Shown: positions 50,290-55,318 of the stretch, piece by piece | Position numbering within the stretch: the first letter of the stretch is position 1 | How the letters are laid out: each line of letters opens with the position of its first letter | DNA from: Citrifermentans bremense | GTDB lineage: Bacteria > Desulfobacterota > Desulfuromonadia > Geobacterales > Geobacteraceae | Reading direction: 5' to 3' | Assembly: GCF_014218275.1 (NCBI RefSeq) | Contig: NZ_AP023213.1 | Coordinates: 4,336,954-4,400,953, forward strand | DNA length: 64,000 nt | Position numbers and translations under genes: made by a program | The notes under the pieces: model-generated | Database searches by the model: none | Told to the model about the DNA's origin: nothing | The model's input: the letters and a program-made list of their open reading frames with translations, nothing else

Positions 50290-50901
50290 TCAAGGTTGAA
50301 GACTGATCGGGTTGGACCAGGGGCCGGCCATGTCTCCGCGCTTACCCCTGATCCTGAGCCAGTTGAGCTGCGTGCGATTCAATCCGGTTATCGGTATCTT
50401 CTGGCACTTGGTCGACCATACCAGAAGCCTCCAGTTTCCTTCCAGGCCGGGGTCCGCTTCGCAGGCCCATACTTCATATCCCTTTGCCCCCACTATCTTT
50501 GTGATTGACACTTCAGGATGACCTTTCTTGTCGAAACTGACCCTGAAATCCCTAGGACGGTCCAAGACAGCCTGAGAAGAGGGTGTTCTTTCGGTTGAGT
50601 GATTGAAACCGAAGGATTCCTGCAGTGAGGGATCTTTCGCTGTGATCACCTTGGCCAAGCCCAGAAGAAGGGCGAGGTTTTGGTCGATCAACTGGCGATC
50701 CTCTTCGCAGGCCTTGATCTTTTCGGGGTCTCCCTTCAGAGAACCTGCAAAATTGGTCGCGTAGCGTTCATGAAGCTCGCTATAAAACTCGGGCGTGGGG
50801 ATGAGCGATAACATCCGGTTGAACATCTCCCTGTTATAGTTCGCATTCATCGCTGCGGATTTGGAGATCAATTCAGGATGGCTCAATTTACTCGTCGGCA
50901 T
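50290..50901 (-). CDS. hypothetical protein with fibronectin-III-like C-terminal part
   Basis: The 203-residue protein has no signal peptide. The N-terminal half is helical (KSAAMNANYNREMFNRM, DRQLIDQNLALLLGLAKVI); the C-terminal 85 residues alternate strands (FRVSFDKKGHPEVSITKI, YEVWACEADPG, WLRIRGKRGDMAGPWSNPI) in the way of a fibronectin-III-like fold. The start at 50901 has a GGAGGTGGC site. Function unknown. Confidence 0.72.
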   Translation of the reverse strand: MPTSKLSHPELISKSAAMNANYNREMFNRMLSLIPTPEFYSELHERYATNFAGSLKGDPEKIKACEEDRQLIDQNLALLLGLAKVITAKDPSLQESFGFNHSTERTPSSQAVLDRPRDFRVSFDKKGHPEVSITKIVGAKGYEVWACEADPGLEGNWRLLVWSTKCQKIPITGLNRTQLNWLRIRGKRGDMAGPWSNPISLQP

Positions 50902-50952: not shown

Positions 50953-51255
50953 CTGCCGATGTCAAAAAAAAAATTGGGGCCAAATACCTCCGGTGCTTTT
51001 TCATGGACAATTATTGGGAATGAACGTTTTGGAATCTGAAAATGCACCTTCTGAAGAAAATACGTCATTTTATGTTCCAAAAATGACGTATTTGAAAAGA
51101 ATATGGTGTTTCCTGCCCAAGAATGACGCATTTGGGGAAAAAATGTTGTTTCGGCCATCCCATGTAGCGGAGCATGGGAGTTTAGGCTTGATTCCGAAGA
51201 AAATTCAAATTCCTAACAGGTTATCCTGCAGGCGACGAAAATTCAGAAAAAGAAG
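50953..51255. other. A+T-rich region with inverted and direct repeats
   Basis: AAATACGTCATTT (51058-51070) is perfectly complementary to AAATGACGTATTT (51081-51093) across a 10-base loop; a related AATGACGCATTTG occurs near 51120. The repeated TGACG half-sites on both strands are compatible with a regulator-binding region. No convincing gene is seen, despite short open frames on both strands. Confidence 0.5.
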
Positions 51256-51283
51256 TTGACAATTCCTCATCTAAAGGTATCAT
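51256..51283 (+). promoter_or_regulatory. promoter of the tandem GEMM riboswitch/L,D-transpeptidase unit
   Basis: A consensus -35 box TTGACA at 51256-51261 is 16 bases from TATCAT at 51278-51283, which differs from the -10 consensus at one base. Transcription should start near 51290, about 15 bases before the first aptamer. Confidence 0.8.
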
Positions 51284-51304
51284 CCCCGCAAGTTGAAACT
51301 TGGA

Positions 51305-51387
51305 TAGACGATAATACTCAACCATCCGCGAGGGTGGGGCGGAAAGCCTATAGGGTCTCACCGAGACAGCCGGGTTGCCGAAATATC
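51305..51387 (+). promoter_or_regulatory. GEMM-I riboswitch aptamer, copy 1
   Basis: The segment has the GEMM-I layout: CTCAACC, a tetraloop stem (CCATCCGCGAGGGTGGGG), the invariant CGGAAAGCC, a second stem (AGGGTCTCACCGAGACAGCC) and GGGTTGCCG. GEMM-I aptamers bind c-di-GMP; a Geobacter subclass (GEMM-Ib) binds 3',3'-cyclic AMP-GMP. Closing pairs GATA (51310-51313) with TATC (51384-51387). The same TATC takes part in the terminator, so ligand binding should prevent termination (an on-switch). Confidence 0.9.
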
Positions 51388-51414
51388 ACGAGATATTCCG
51401 GTCCCGGCTTTTTT
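51369..51414 (+). terminator. expression-platform terminator of riboswitch copy 1
   Basis: GCCGGG (51369-51374) pairs with CCCGGC (51403-51408), and AATATC (51382-51387) with GATATT (51392-51397), followed by a six-T run. It shares the 51382-51387 strand with the aptamer, giving mutually exclusive folds. Confidence 0.85.
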
Positions 51415-51511
51415 GTTTCCAAGGATGAAACGGGGGGCAAGTCGCGACAGGCGCCTTGAGAGGCGCGGGTATGATGCCGGGCGGTGTTCCCGGCACCAAC
51501 ATCGATGGTGG

Positions 51512-51594
51512 TAGACGATAATACTCAACCATCCGCGAGGATGGGGCGGAAAGCCTACAGGGTCTCACCGAGACAGCCGGGTTGCCGAAATATC
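51512..51594 (+). promoter_or_regulatory. GEMM-I riboswitch aptamer, copy 2
   Basis: A near-exact second copy of 51305-51387 (differences at three positions over the 110-base aptamer-plus-terminator unit), starting 207 bases downstream. It again has CGGAAAGCC and GGGTTGCCG with a GATA/TATC closing stem. It directly precedes the L,D-transpeptidase gene. Confidence 0.9.
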
Positions 51595-51622
51595 ACGAGA
51601 TATTCCGGCCCCGGCTTTTTTT
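51576..51622 (+). terminator. expression-platform terminator of riboswitch copy 2
   Basis: GCCGGG (51576-51581) pairs with CCCGGC (51610-51615), followed by a run of seven Ts. It lies 28 bases before the start codon of the transpeptidase gene. Confidence 0.85.
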
Positions 51623-51649
51623 GCGCCATAGCTTAGGAAGGCTTCAGTC

Positions 51650-52960
51650 ATGCACAAGATCTTTCGGCTGCCATTCATAGCGAACGTTGTTCGCCCCTTG
51701 TTTCTCTGCTGCTTCCTCCTGTACCTGAACGGATGCGCAGCCATGAACAGGGCTGCCGAGCCATCGTCTCTGAGCCCGGCTCCCATGCAGAGGGAGATCG
51801 AGCGGAACGCCTTTCCGGTAGCTGCAGGTGATGACGTCATCGGCACCCTGGCAGTGGTGAAGTTGGAGAAGGGTGACACCCTGCCCGACATCGCCCGGCA
51901 TTTCAGCCTGGGTATCAACGCGATAAGTGCCGCCAATCCAGGTGTCGATGTCTGGGTGCCTGAACCGGGGAGGGAGGTGATACTCCCCTTGACCTTCATC
52001 CTCCCCGATGCCCCCCGCAAAGGGATCGTGGTCAACCTGGCAACCATGCGTCTTTTCCGCTTCAAGGGGAACGTCGTGTCGACCTACCCGGTAGGTGTCG
52101 GCACCTCCGAGCGGCCGACTCCTACAGGTAAGATGCGCGTGGAAAGAAAGGCTGCCCTTCCCACCTGGCGCGTGCCCGCTTCAATTGCGGAAGATCACAG
52201 GAAAAAGGGAGATCCTCTCCCTGCGGAAATTCCCCCGGGAGCCCTCAACCCATTGGGCGAGCGCGCGCTTTATCTGAGCAAGGCCGGCTACTTGATCCAC
52301 GGCACCAACAAGCCGGCCAGCATAGGCCTTAAGGCGACGAACGGGTGCCTGCGACTCTATCCGGAGAACGTAACTGCGCTCTACGAGGAGACCCCGGTGA
52401 ACACCCCTGTGTTAATCGTGAACCAGCCATATCTCGTTGGGGAACGCGATGGGGTCCTGTATCTGGAGGCCCATGCGCCCAGGGAAAGCTCCGGCGCCCT
52501 GGAGTGGGAAAAGCTGTCGGCAAAACTCAAGAAGCTGGAAAAGAATTACGGTCGAGGGCTCGACTGGAAAAAGATCTCTCAGATACGTATGGAAGCCAGG
52601 GGTGTTCCTGTCCCCATCTTGGCCTTAGGTCCAGACGGCGGGAAAGAGAGTGTCAAACCGGTAACTCTCGAACACCCGCCCCAGGTATTCGGCGCCCCGG
52701 AGATACCAGAGCTGCGGCTGGACGCCTGGTATGTCCTGGCTGCCAACGTGCGCGAGGAGTTGGAGGCTCGGCGGATTGCCGCCATCATCAACCACCAGGG
52801 TCCGCCCATCCCGGCACGGGTCTTGTCGAAGAGCGGCAACAGCTACCGTGTCATCGCCGGCCCCTTCGATAACGCCGGCGTGGCCAAGGAGGCGGTGAGA
52901 CGCCTGAAACTCGACCTGGAACTCGATGGGATATTGATCGATCCTGTTGCAAAGATGTAG
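51650..52960 (+). CDS. LysM-like/YkuD L,D-transpeptidase lipoprotein with SPOR domain
   Basis: The 436-residue precursor has a lipoprotein signal (LLYLNGCAAM, Cys near 29), a LysM-like peptidoglycan-binding repeat (LEKGDTLPDIARHFSLGINAI), a YkuD L,D-transpeptidase core (IVVNLATMRLFRFK ... YLIHGTNKPASIGLKATNGCLRLYPEN; about 125-255) and a C-terminal SPOR domain (DAWYVLAANV ... YRVIAGPFDN). The catalytic Cys is in TNGCLRL; the usual SHGC has Asn instead of His before Gly. LDTs of this type crosslink peptidoglycan or attach outer-membrane lipoproteins. It is under control of two riboswitches. Confidence 0.9.
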   Translation: MHKIFRLPFIANVVRPLFLCCFLLYLNGCAAMNRAAEPSSLSPAPMQREIERNAFPVAAGDDVIGTLAVVKLEKGDTLPDIARHFSLGINAISAANPGVDVWVPEPGREVILPLTFILPDAPRKGIVVNLATMRLFRFKGNVVSTYPVGVGTSERPTPTGKMRVERKAALPTWRVPASIAEDHRKKGDPLPAEIPPGALNPLGERALYLSKAGYLIHGTNKPASIGLKATNGCLRLYPENVTALYEETPVNTPVLIVNQPYLVGERDGVLYLEAHAPRESSGALEWEKLSAKLKKLEKNYGRGLDWKKISQIRMEARGVPVPILALGPDGGKESVKPVTLEHPPQVFGAPEIPELRLDAWYVLAANVREELEARRIAAIINHQGPPIPARVLSKSGNSYRVIAGPFDNAGVAKEAVRRLKLDLELDGILIDPVAKM

Positions 52961-53048
52961 CAAATCCGGCCTGTCCATGGTGCAGGCCGGATGTCATGAA
53001 CTACCCGCGGTGGCGTAAAACAAACCAACAATTAGGAGGTAACTAGTC

Positions 53049-53414
53049 ATGAAGAAAGGTGCTCTTTTGGTCACGATGATGCTTGTTCCCGCTGTTGCCA
53101 TGACGGGATGTGCGACGTCAGGGGATCTCGCGAAGGTGCAGACGCAGGAAAGGGCGATCGGCGCTAAAGCCGATCAGGCATTGCAGGAAGCCCAGGCTGC
53201 CAAGGCCACGGCGGATGCGGCCAAGGCACAGGCCGATGCTGCAGCGGCTCGGGCGGAAAATGCGGCAAAAGCGGCAGAGGAAAGAGAAAAGCTCGCCGCC
53301 GAGAAGGAAAGGCTGGCCGCAGAAAAGGAAAAGGCTGCCGAGGAGCGGGAAAAGATCGCGCAAGAAAAGGGAGAGCGGGCTGACGCCGCTTTTTACAAGT
53401 CGATGAGGAAGTAA
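53049..53414 (+). CDS. Lpp-like alanine-zipper lipoprotein ending in lysine
   Basis: The 121-residue precursor has a lipobox (AVAMTGCAT, Cys21), a long Ala/Glu/Lys coiled coil with heptad-like AKA and EKE repeats and no globular domain, and ends FYKSMRK. The mature protein is about 100 residues, nearly twice Braun's lipoprotein, but shares its plan: lipidated Cys, alanine zipper, basic C-terminus with terminal Lys. In enteric bacteria that Lys is linked to peptidoglycan by L,D-transpeptidases, and two such genes flank this one. An excellent AGGAGG site lies at 53034-53039. Confidence 0.85.
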   Translation: MKKGALLVTMMLVPAVAMTGCATSGDLAKVQTQERAIGAKADQALQEAQAAKATADAAKAQADAAAARAENAAKAAEEREKLAAEKERLAAEKEKAAEEREKIAQEKGERADAAFYKSMRK

Positions 53415-53429
53415 CTGCGTTTATTAAGA

Positions 53430-53486
53430 GTCTCCCCCTCCCCTATTCGCGGACCGAAGCGTTAAGGCGCGCAGGCCCGTCAAGGG
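53430..53486. repeat. 13-bp perfect inverted repeat after the Lpp-like gene
   Basis: GTCTCCCCCTCCC (53430-53442) is complementary to GGGAGGGGGAGAC (53474-53486), with a 31-base loop. It lies 16 bases past the Lpp-like stop and could terminate or stabilise that transcript. It has no T-run. Confidence 0.65.
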
Positions 53487-53556
53487 AGGGGGAGACCGTC
53501 ATTGCATTACGTCTCCAAGATGAAGCTTGGGAGGATTCAAAAACAAATCCCCCCTG

Positions 53557-53579
53557 CCCCCCCTTCGCAAAGGGGGGAA
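53557..53579. repeat. G/C-run hairpin
   Basis: CCCCCCTT pairs with AAGGGGGG across CGCA in the spacer between the Lpp-like gene and the second transpeptidase gene. Related G/C-run hairpins occur at 29134-29251. Confidence 0.5.
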
Positions 53580-53580
53580 C

Positions 53581-53689
53581 GTTAATTCGCGGACAGTGCT
53601 TGATGGGCAATATTCCCCTGGTTCCCGAATTCCCCGATGAACTTTAGAAAAGGGGGAAGTTTATTCACGGACAATGCTTGATGGGCAAT
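53581..53689. repeat. pair of 31-bp direct repeats
   Basis: GTTAATTCGCGGACAGTGCT... (53581-53611) recurs as GTTTATTCACGGACAATGCT... (53659-53689) with three or four differences, both ending TTGATGGGCAAT. The second copy ends 20 bases before the transpeptidase start. Function unknown; possible recombination site. Confidence 0.65.
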
Positions 53690-53709
53690 GGGTGAAGGTG
53701 AAGGCGACG

Positions 53710-54705
53710 ATGGAAGTTACAACTGTAAGCAGGAAATGGAAGCAGCTTTGCCTTTTCATTGTCCTCGCCGCATTAGTTTTCCCGGCGGGCGGATGCAGCC
53801 ACCTCGACGGCTCATTCCGCGCCGCTTCCGCATTTGAAGAAGCCGGCGGCCGTTCCGACCGGGGTGATTACCCGGCCGCTTTGAGCGGATACGAAGAGGC
53901 CTTGAAGAAGTACCCCGCCGCCGGGGACAGGGCTTTGTTCGAAATGGGGATCATCCACGCCCACCCGAATAACCCGCAGAAGGATTACGGCAAAGCGCTG
54001 GAGTGCTACCGGACCCTGATTAAGGATTACCCCCGAAGCAGTTACAGGCCGGACAGCGAGATGATGATTTTTTACCTCGCCAATGTGACGATGAAGGATA
54101 AACTCCTCGACACCCAGCGAAACGAGATCGAGGTTCTCCAGCGCGAGGTAAATAAACAGCGGGACGAGATAGCAACCCTGCAGCGGGAGATCGGTAACAA
54201 GGAAGGCGAAATTGCCTCGCTGCAGCAGGAAATCACGGCGCTGGAGAAAGCCGCCTCTCCTCCCCCTGCGGTCATTAAGGGACCGGCCGACAAGATCCTG
54301 ATAGAGAAGAAAGAACGACGCTTGACCCTGATGGCGAAGGGCGAGGTGCTCAAAAGCTACAAGATTTCTTTGGGGGGAAATCCCAACGGTCCCAAGGAAA
54401 GGCAGGGGGATAACAAGACACCGGAAGGAACCTACCAGATCGATTCGAGGAACAGCGACAGCCAGTATCACCTCTCCCTTCATATCTCCTACCCCAACGA
54501 GCGGGACAAAAGGCGAGCCAGGCAAATGGGGGTTTCCCCGGGCGGAGACATCATGATTCACGGGATGCGCAACGGCTTCTCGTGGTTTGGCGAATACCAC
54601 ACCTCCATCGACTGGACCAGGGGATGTATCGCCGTAACCGACAATGAAATACTGGAGATAAGTGAACTGGTGCCAAACGGCACTGTCGTGGAAATAACCC
54701 CATAG
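53710..54705 (+). CDS. second L,D-transpeptidase (TPR/coiled-coil lipoprotein, YkuD)
   Basis: The 331-residue precursor has a lipoprotein signal (VFPAGGCSHL, Cys near 30), a TPR-like region (GDYPAALSGYEEALKKYPA, KALECYRTLIKDYPRSSYR; about 50-125), a coiled coil (NEIEVLQREVNKQRDEIATL; about 135-185) and a YkuD transpeptidase core at the C-terminus (RRLTLMAKGEVLKSYKISLG, catalytic MIHGMRNGFSW ... WTRGCIAV). TRGCIAV carries the catalytic Cys and the upstream His is in IHGM. The ATG at 53710 was chosen because it gives a normal signal peptide. It probably acts with the preceding two genes on the cell wall. Confidence 0.87.
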   Translation: MEVTTVSRKWKQLCLFIVLAALVFPAGGCSHLDGSFRAASAFEEAGGRSDRGDYPAALSGYEEALKKYPAAGDRALFEMGIIHAHPNNPQKDYGKALECYRTLIKDYPRSSYRPDSEMMIFYLANVTMKDKLLDTQRNEIEVLQREVNKQRDEIATLQREIGNKEGEIASLQQEITALEKAASPPPAVIKGPADKILIEKKERRLTLMAKGEVLKSYKISLGGNPNGPKERQGDNKTPEGTYQIDSRNSDSQYHLSLHISYPNERDKRRARQMGVSPGGDIMIHGMRNGFSWFGEYHTSIDWTRGCIAVTDNEILEISELVPNGTVVEITP

Positions 54706-55063
54706 GCGCGTCCAGCAGCTTAAGCATGCCACCGGCGTTATCGTTGAGCGTCATCACCGAACGTCCCTCCTTGGCCGCAAGAACCTATCTGACGAACTGC
54801 CGATTTCAAACAAATACAAGTAAATACAAATCCCCCCGCCCCCCACTCAAAGGCATAGCACACGGATTTGACGGATAACGCGGATAGAATCAGACTGATC
54901 TTGAGAAAGCATCAGCGTCTAATCCGCGGTAATCGTTTTTAATCCGCGTCATCCGCGTGCGATGCCTCTGCCTTGGGTTGATAAATAGTTTTAACCGCTC
55001 CCGGTTTGTGCTAGTTATGTAGGACATTTTCCCAACCGTCTGTTCCCGCCAAGGAGGTTGACT
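54706..55063. other. intergenic region between the second transpeptidase and the selenoprotein gene
   Basis: The 358-base spacer contains the solo palindromic repeat and, near the end, an AAGGAGG ribosome site (55051-55057). I see no convincing -10/-35 pair; the selenoprotein promoter must lie between the repeat and 55050. Confidence 0.5.
54852..54966. repeat. solo 115-bp palindromic repeat (GxxExxY-associated family)
   Basis: The element starts GGCATAGCACACGGAT and ends ATCCGCGTGCGATGCC; its arms (GACGGATAACGCGGAT against AATCCGCGTCATCCGCG) form a long imperfect hairpin. Composition and ends match the repeats flanking the GxxExxY gene at 35331-35973, but no gene lies beside it. It is probably a MITE-like or footprint copy. 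Confidence 0.75.
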
Positions 55064-55318
55064 ATGAAGATCCGCAAAAAGATTCTCGATTTCGAGTATG
55101 AAGAGGTTCTGGAAGTCAAGTACCGCGAACTGATACGGGTGGGCTGCGCCGTCGCTGTCGGGTGCCCCGATTGACTCAAGAAGCACTTCGCGGTCGCGAA
55201 GCAAGCAGGCGCCACTGAAGCGGAACTGAACGAGGCCATGGCCTACGGCATGATCGCACCGTCCGGAAGGGCGAAAAACTTCGTGCTCGGCATGAAGGGG
55301 ACACTGGACGAGTTGTAA
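55064..55318 (+). CDS. AhpD-like (carboxymuconolactone decarboxylase family) selenoprotein with in-frame UGA
   Basis: Read with TGA at 55172-55174 as selenocysteine, this is an 84-residue protein: ATG at 55064 after an AAGGAGG site, then KYRELIRVGCAVAVGCPDU at residues 19-37 and LKKHFAVAKQAG, ending at TAA 55316-55318. C34-x-x-U37-x-x-x-H41 reproduces the CxxCxxxH active site of AhpD peroxidases, with the second Cys replaced by Sec. The frame continues in the same family fold after the UGA (ATEAELNEAMAYGMIA), which argues against a random stop. AhpD-like Sec proteins are known in Geobacter relatives. Ordinary ORF callers would split it. Confidence 0.85.
55172..55201 (+). promoter_or_regulatory. 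UGA codon and bacterial SECIS-like hairpin
   Basis: Just after the TGA (55172-55174) the sequence folds as CTTCGC (55186-55191), loop GGTC (55192-55195), GCGAAG (55196-55201). The loop begins 17 bases after the UGA. The E. coli fdhF SECIS element has a loop GGUC at a very similar distance, which is the site bound by SelB. This supports recoding of the UGA. Confidence 0.8.

Follow-up and report, generated by a model that had tools for sequence, protein, structure and literature searches.

Within a 64,000-nucleotide stretch of the Citrifermentans bremense genome (G000:C1:4336954-4400953, hereafter the window; the genome is a single contig of 4.46 Mb), a promoter-like site is followed, all on one strand, by two GEMM-I riboswitch aptamers and three lipoprotein genes. 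Based on the analyses described here, we consider it likely that this locus is an operon for covalent tethering of the outer membrane to peptidoglycan, switched on by cyclic GMP-AMP (cGAMP). A preliminary description of the locus had named the same parts, namely the riboswitches, a YkuD/SPOR gene, an Lpp-like gene, a second YkuD gene and a set of repeats, all of which were recovered. Its tethering interpretation stands as far as it places an Lpp-type substrate with a conserved C-terminal lysine beside an L,D-transpeptidase behind a riboswitch; its reading of the second YkuD protein as a further attaching enzyme does not. The features, in window coordinates, are as follows.

51256..51283, + strand: promoter-like site, TTGACA-16-TATCAT (11/12 consensus positions)
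51306..51382, + strand: GEMM-I aptamer 1, cGAMP type with A at model position 11 (RF01051, 40.8 bits)
51368..51414, + strand: terminator 1, whose 5′ arm is the 3′ arm of aptamer 1, followed by a T-run (fold -24.3 kcal/mol)
51513..51589, + strand: GEMM-I aptamer 2, cGAMP type with A at model position 11 (RF01051, 41.9 bits)
51575..51622, + strand: terminator 2, whose 5′ arm is the 3′ arm of aptamer 2, followed by a T-run (fold -25.7 kcal/mol)
51650..52960, + strand: gene 1, lipoprotein L,D-transpeptidase with a weak LysM match, YkuD (C233-x-R235) and SPOR; 436 residues, by domain matches; proposed writer
53049..53414, + strand: gene 2, Lpp/OprI-family alanine-zipper lipoprotein with a C-terminal Lys; 121 residues, mature rod of 101; proposed tether
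53710..54705, + strand: gene 3, 331-residue lipoprotein combining TPR, a helix (residues 113-182) and YkuD with C306-I-A308; proposed eraser

The terminator folding energies were computed with flanking bases included. In the proposed mechanism, transcription without ligand would end at terminator 1 or 2, each of which has one arm in common with its aptamer, while binding of 3′,3′-cGAMP would let the aptamers hold the shared arm, so that transcription would read through. Gene 2 would then supply the rod, a long alpha-helical lipoprotein of the outer membrane, and gene 1, using a stem peptide as donor, would join the C-terminal Lys of the rod to meso-diaminopimelic acid (DAP). Gene 3, a YkuD hydrolase of the DpaA or LD-carboxypeptidase kind, would oppose gene 1, either through cleavage of the Lys-DAP bond or by taking D-Ala off the donor. 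Every enzymatic step of this scheme is proposed from sequence. The operon may have a role during growth on Fe(III) particles. If the scheme is correct, a single small molecule would control tether, writer and eraser in a natural system, making membrane anchoring adjustable on demand.

The proposed tether

Gene 2 had been described as an Lpp-like alanine-zipper lipoprotein with a lipobox and a C-terminal Lys, and the family models uphold this. The protein scored 60 bits against NF040598 ('Lpp/OprI family alanine-zipper lipoprotein', cut-off 43), a model that also matched all 16 gene 2 orthologues tested, and 40.8 bits against PF11839 (cut-off 23.1), of which it is the only match in the genome. 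The window protein ends in FYKSMRK. Among 60 proteins (59 relatives and the window), the C-terminal Lys is present in 59, the exception being frameshifted, and a lipobox was recognized in 59 by a heuristic criterion. The rest of the tail is equally constant, with Ser at -4 in 60/60, Met at -3 in 59/60 and Phe at -7 in 59/60. In a second locus set, gene 2 ends in Lys in 46 of 48 cases, the other two being truncated or frameshifted.

The rod between lipobox and tail varies in discrete steps. The 81 distinct intact sequences have mature lengths of 69, 73, 76, 80, 87, 90, 94, 101 or 108 residues, of which 77/81 equal 3 modulo 7 and 4/81 equal 6 modulo 7; these sequences are related to each other and are not independent trials. 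In one parsimony reconstruction on the gene 1 tree (84 tips), 29 of 33 length changes were multiples of 7, the others being -4, 4, 11 and 18. Such heptad steps are what a coiled coil that keeps its register would give. With 101 mature residues, compared with 58 in E. coli, the window rod would be about 15 nm long if fully helical. For E. coli, 2 or 3 extra Lpp heptads were reported to make the periplasm 3-4 nm wider (PMC5736177; here and below, statements from the literature refer to excerpts of the cited texts).

The proposed writer

Gene 1 carries the lipobox LNGC and, as stated in the preliminary description, is a YkuD/SPOR L,D-transpeptidase: the Pfam matches to YkuD (75.2 bits) and SPOR (37.7 bits) are both above cut-off, while that to LysM (18.5 bits) is under its cut-off of 20.9. 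C233 and R235 are kept in at least 95% of 65 sequences, and the protein has the Cys-x-Arg YkuD signature of the ErfK/YbiS/YcfS/YnhG L,D-transpeptidases. Its nearest named relative is Citrifermentans bremense R1, with 80% identity. The models LdtE, PRK10190 and PRK10260 gave 150-160 bits, with cut-offs of 480-583. The ErfK/YbiS/YcfS/YnhG lineage includes anchoring and cross-linking enzymes alike (PMC10434034); for this reason, the anchoring activity that we infer for gene 1 is based on its partner, gene 2. A structure model of gene 1, with a mean predicted local distance difference test score of 52, was not used to separate anchoring from cross-linking.

The proposed eraser

The start of gene 3 at 53710 fits the relatives; another ATG lies upstream at 53674. 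The protein matches YkuD with 69.5 bits and contains TPR repeats and a long predicted helix or coiled coil. The C306-I-A308 motif is invariant in 28 sequences. The position two residues beyond the catalytic Cys is mostly Ala or Asn in DpaA-like proteins and Arg in transpeptidases (PMC8263019), and gene 3 therefore carries the DpaA/YafK signature, which is also common to Pgp2. The NCBIfam DpaA model was matched by all 28 gene 3 orthologues tested and was the best NCBIfam match in each, no other listed model being matched by all. DpaA (8ikr) was also the best match among PDB sequences and the best Foldseek match, with an E-value of 4.4e-7 compared with 7.5e-7 for YkuD/mycobacterial transpeptidases. 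Of the six DpaA residues named in PMC10653827, which align to gene 3 at one constant offset, three are kept (K83 as K229, Q86 as Q232 and Y109 as Y253) and three are replaced (R108 by Q252, K130 by D280 and Y131 by I281).

The Cys-Ile-Ala in place of Cys-x-Arg, together with the DpaA-like matches, speaks against the earlier proposal of a second attaching enzyme, which we set aside; gene 3 more likely encodes an eraser or a carboxypeptidase. The fold alone does not fix the function, since a different chemistry is reported for one YafK-family protein (PMC13400389). Whether amidase or carboxypeptidase, either activity would oppose gene 1.

Conservation of the trio

We searched for the three-gene pattern in 79 loci (L014-L092) chosen by similarity to gene 1, 64 of them close (L014-L077). 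All three genes were found in 58 of the close loci, in the order 1-2-3 in 47, 3-1-2 in 10 and 2-3-1 in one; in five of the remaining six, the contig edge falls at gene 1 or gene 2 or shortly after it, the sixth being L058. Most of the 15 distant loci (L078-L092) are from Gammaproteobacteria; none of the 15 has gene 2 or gene 3 nearby.

Because these loci had been picked by gene 1 similarity, a sample of 117 genomes of the order, presumably Geobacterales, was added; the order was chosen because a phylum-wide sample gave a close gene 1 in only 5/148 genomes, the window's own included. With cut-offs of E ≤1e-80 for gene 1, E ≤1e-4 for gene 2 and more than 320 bits for a strong gene 3, the genes were detected in 50, 51 and 50 genomes, respectively, and none of the three in 66. 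The only genomes in which they do not occur together, G250 and G245, have a contig break within gene 2. The trio is thus all-or-none in the order sampled, with 51 genomes having it, 66 lacking it and both partial cases lying at contig edges. At a looser E-value of 1e-40, gene 3 was found in 59 genomes, the extra ones being weaker matches to the catalytic domain.

For the riboswitch, we fetched the 49 gene 1 loci outside the window's genome and two other stretches and searched them with R1, an RNA model built from the 13 GEMM-I copies of the C. bremense genome. All 49 fetched loci have an R1 match that precedes gene 1 and shares its strand (83 matches, two in each of 34 loci), so that with the window the switch is found in 50/50 loci and in two copies in at least 35/50, some upstream regions ending at a contig edge. 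The base that discriminates between cGAMP and cyclic di-GMP (c-di-GMP) binders is A in 82 of 84 readable copies and G in 2, and a T-run (at least 5) follows the aptamer after 23-29 nucleotides in 81/85 copies. The comparison of gene order across relatives, proposed in the preliminary description, gave colinear genes in all 47 fetched loci in which the three were detected (in L182, gene 2 is frameshifted). What counts here is where the RNA lies rather than that it occurs, since 113/117 genomes of the order have R1 matches somewhere. As a separate observation, own-genus genomes without the trio still have 7-22 GEMM-I matches each.

Trios also occur in records outside the order. Among loci L014-L077, a set that overlaps in part with the fetched order loci, R1 matches were found in 29/64 (45 matches, two of them weak, in L016 and L031). 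Rfam models detected no GEMM in 11 trio loci without an R1 match (11 of the 35 such loci were scanned), ten of which are titled Nitrospirae, Syntrophaceae, Syntrophus or Desulfobacterales and one, L043, only Deltaproteobacteria. Given these GEMM-free loci, the cassette is more widespread than its riboswitch control, and we rejected the riboswitch as a universal part of the trio.

Riboswitches, ligand and promoter

The two GEMM-I riboswitches claimed earlier both exceed the RF01051 gathering score of 35, and they are the only Rfam matches above gathering score in the whole window. Both carry A at the discriminating base, which we take to be A14 of the cGAMP riboswitch, or G20A in GEMM-I. In the C. 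bremense genome, an alignment of the 13 GEMM-I RNAs above threshold has A at this base in 11 and G in 2. The discriminating position was taken from PMC6274999. The 3′ arm of each aptamer doubles as the 5′ arm of its terminator, and each terminator closes with a T-run, an arrangement consistent with an ON switch; judged by these sequence features, the two RNAs are probably cGAMP ON switches.

The published work on G. sulfurreducens points in the same direction. Deletion of gacA, which encodes the cGAMP synthase, lowered transcription of all genes behind GEMM-Ib RNAs, among them GSU0181-0183, which fell 16-fold, and left a c-di-GMP reporter unchanged; tandem switches are described in the same paper (PMC6456294). 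Together with the A at the discriminating base, these RNA sequencing data make cGAMP the most likely ligand of the window aptamers. The second-messenger control advanced in the preliminary description is thus supported, a cyclic-dinucleotide riboswitch lying upstream in 50/50 trio loci of the order. Of the 26 PF00990 matches in the C. bremense genome, two have the Hypr serine (criterion from PMC8835794), namely L114 (GGDEY) and L125 (GGDDF, like GSU1937).

At another locus of the genome (G000:C1:2699017-2699278; L008 and L002), a tandem GEMM-I pair precedes a lipoprotein-like gene, the first copy having A and the second G at the discriminating base; by this difference, the two copies may sense different ligands. 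The open reading frames behind the cGAMP-type copies of the genome (among L003-L013) seem to encode one PAS-like signalling protein and otherwise secreted or envelope proteins. No more than one CxxCH motif was found in the stretches examined, which thus gave no sign of the multihaem cytochromes that belong to the G. sulfurreducens regulon.

The upstream promoter of the preliminary description corresponds to the site at 51256-51283, the sole promoter-like site detected within 51100-54900. Its score alone means little, since shuffled sequence yields a mean of 1.4 such sites; L134 and L135, the nearest relatives, have near-identical hexamers in the corresponding position.

Weighing the tethering reading

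Several observations weigh against tethering as proposed here. PF04728, the family of E. coli Lpp, is not among the Pfam matches of gene 2 at E ≤0.1, and the covalent link of gene 2 to peptidoglycan is, for this clade, argued from sequence. Gene 1 falls under the cut-off of every NCBIfam equivalog, and its top model is LdtE, a cross-linker (160 bits, cut-off 480). Gene 3 reaches 48.1 bits against the DpaA model NF040599, whose equivalog cut-off is 365; it does not have K130 and Y131 of DpaA, its TRGCIA motif is common to the LD-carboxypeptidase Pgp2, and Foldseek ranks DpaA above a transpeptidase by a small margin. A profile search found no gene 2 in the 9.7 kb of locus L058, which does have genes 3 and 1. 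The distribution is patchy, 16 of the 19 sampled genomes of the window's own genus having no trio and 3 having it. Finally, GSU0181-0183, apparently the orthologue of the window operon, was equated with it by means other than sequence comparison.

The points on gene 3 bear on an alternative that keeps the tethering and changes its reversal. Gene 3 could be an LD-carboxypeptidase of the Csd6/Pgp2 kind rather than an amidase, trimming tetrapeptides to tripeptides and so limiting the donor of gene 1, with release of the tether being non-enzymatic. Among PDB sequences, Pgp2 ranks directly behind DpaA, and it has the TRGCIA motif; a critical Lys is common to DpaA and Csd6 (PMC10653827), and the DpaA residue Y131 is Ile in gene 3. 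Nevertheless, DpaA is the best match throughout the NCBIfam, PDB sequence and Foldseek comparisons, and gene 3 adjoins an Lpp-type gene; we regard this alternative as unlikely.

Somewhat less probable still is that gene 1 chiefly makes 3-3 cross-links, with gene 2 as a spacer lipoprotein that is free or bound non-covalently, the operon being a cGAMP-controlled wall-remodelling set. SPOR domains suggest binding to wall glycan. The best NCBIfam model of gene 1 is a cross-linker, and enzymes of both kinds belong to its lineage (PMC10434034). Against this, genes 1 and 2 coincide across the 117-genome sample, and gene 2 keeps its C-terminal Lys and F.xSMxK tail despite the changing length of the rod.

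That the switches bind c-di-GMP and the operon belongs to a biofilm programme is highly improbable: RF01051 bears the family name c-di-GMP-I, both ligands reportedly act on the omcST switch (PMC6456294) and two readable copies have G, but the A in both window copies and in nearly all others, together with the GacA dependence of GSU0181-0183 and the unchanged reporter, disfavours this ligand.

Relation to known systems

The tethering operon proposed here would bring together two observations left hanging in the literature, namely the cGAMP dependence of the uncharacterised operon GSU0181-0183 and the length of the Geobacter Lpp, which is unexplained. GSU0181-0183, apparently the same operon as that of the window, is GEMM-Ib controlled, and its middle gene, GSU0182, is listed as 'Murein lipoprotein' (PMC11934962, PMC7962754). 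PMC6456294 names it an 'operon of uncharacterized lipoprotein transpeptidases'; it is not characterised there, and neither tethering nor Lpp nor peptidoglycan is mentioned. Within open-licence PubMed Central, GSU0181, GSU0182 or GSU0183 was found in these three papers. In tables of PMC11934962 and PMC7962754, GSU0182 is down together with pgcA in IHF mutants and is counter-regulated between the two conditions compared in a csrA deletion mutant. For Geobacter, PMC8824477 reports an Lpp of at least 99 residues and raises the question of periplasm width; its main text contains no cGAMP, riboswitch, transpeptidase or DpaA.

Two better-known systems have the same functional parts. In P. aeruginosa, OprI, LdtPae2 and LdtPae3 were proposed as alanine-zipper lipoprotein, anchoring enzyme and, tentatively, DpaA-like hydrolase (PMC10434034); no statement of a common operon or of riboswitch control was found in the excerpts of that paper, and compared with these enzymes, gene 1 has an additional SPOR domain, and gene 3 has TPR and a coiled coil in addition. 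In E. coli, Lpp, LdtA-C and DpaA are likewise substrate, writer and eraser of the Lys-DAP bond (PMC8263019, PMC10653827), whereas the window has a single gene cluster, a rod of 101 rather than 58 mature residues, PF11839 instead of PF04728, and cGAMP-type riboswitches. How cells regulate Lpp attachment was called unclear in PMC10653827. DpaA-like proteins were also found in genomes counted as Lpp-less, including Deltaproteobacteria, and other uses were suggested for them (PMC8263019); in contrast, the DpaA-like gene here adjoins an Lpp/OprI-type gene and an L,D-transpeptidase behind a riboswitch.

The control by cGAMP in a sister species, largely, and the long Lpp of Geobacter are thus already published. 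New here are the reading as rod, writer and probable eraser, the all-or-none conservation, the switch in 50/50 loci and the heptad-stepped rod. The joint reading of rod, writer and putative eraser under one messenger was not found in the open-licence PubMed Central literature (main texts without supplements), and a term search of main text from PMC12285248 and PMC13194489 gave nothing on murein or transpeptidases.

More tentatively, and with more doubt than conviction, we suggest that cGAMP remodels the envelope for contact with insoluble acceptors: with the rod and the bolting and unbolting enzymes on one transcript, tether density would be set by the signal, and a rod evolving by heptads would set a wide gap between outer membrane and wall, suiting periplasmic electron carriers.

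Spacer repeats and neighbouring features

The spacer between genes 2 and 3 contains two repeats that were identified by genome matches and are not part of the proposed mechanism.

53434..53501, strand not assigned: copy of a dispersed genomic repeat
53532..53666, strand not assigned: copy of a second dispersed genomic repeat

The repeats noted in the preliminary description therefore exist, and belong to two dispersed families; the spacer has at least 46 matches in the genome, including itself (40 of 108 candidates were scored). Their suggested role in separating gene 3 into its own transcript was not borne out: no sigma-70-like second promoter and no + strand terminator-like site were found in them, and PMC6456294 calls GSU0181-0183 one operon. 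The spacers of the nearest relatives are largely different in sequence and have a C-rich/G-rich hairpin in common. On these grounds, we rejected the repeats as a specific element or transcript boundary; a separate gene 3 transcript is possible, e.g., from another type of promoter.

Upstream of the operon, a perfect inverted repeat with 14-nucleotide arms and an 8-nucleotide gap (AAATACGTCATTTT / AAAATGACGTATTT) is located at 51058-51093, about 160 nucleotides from the promoter, and is operator- or terminator-like. A divergent open reading frame of 203 residues at 50290-50901 (- strand) has no Pfam or NCBIfam match at E ≤0.1. Downstream, at 55064-55318 (+ strand), lies a small open reading frame with an in-frame TGA at a C-x-x-U position. 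The RNA after this TGA folds no better than shuffled sequences (z 0.53). With the TGA read as U, the product matches Pfam CMD with 49.3 bits (cut-off 23), and it may be an AhpD-like selenoprotein.

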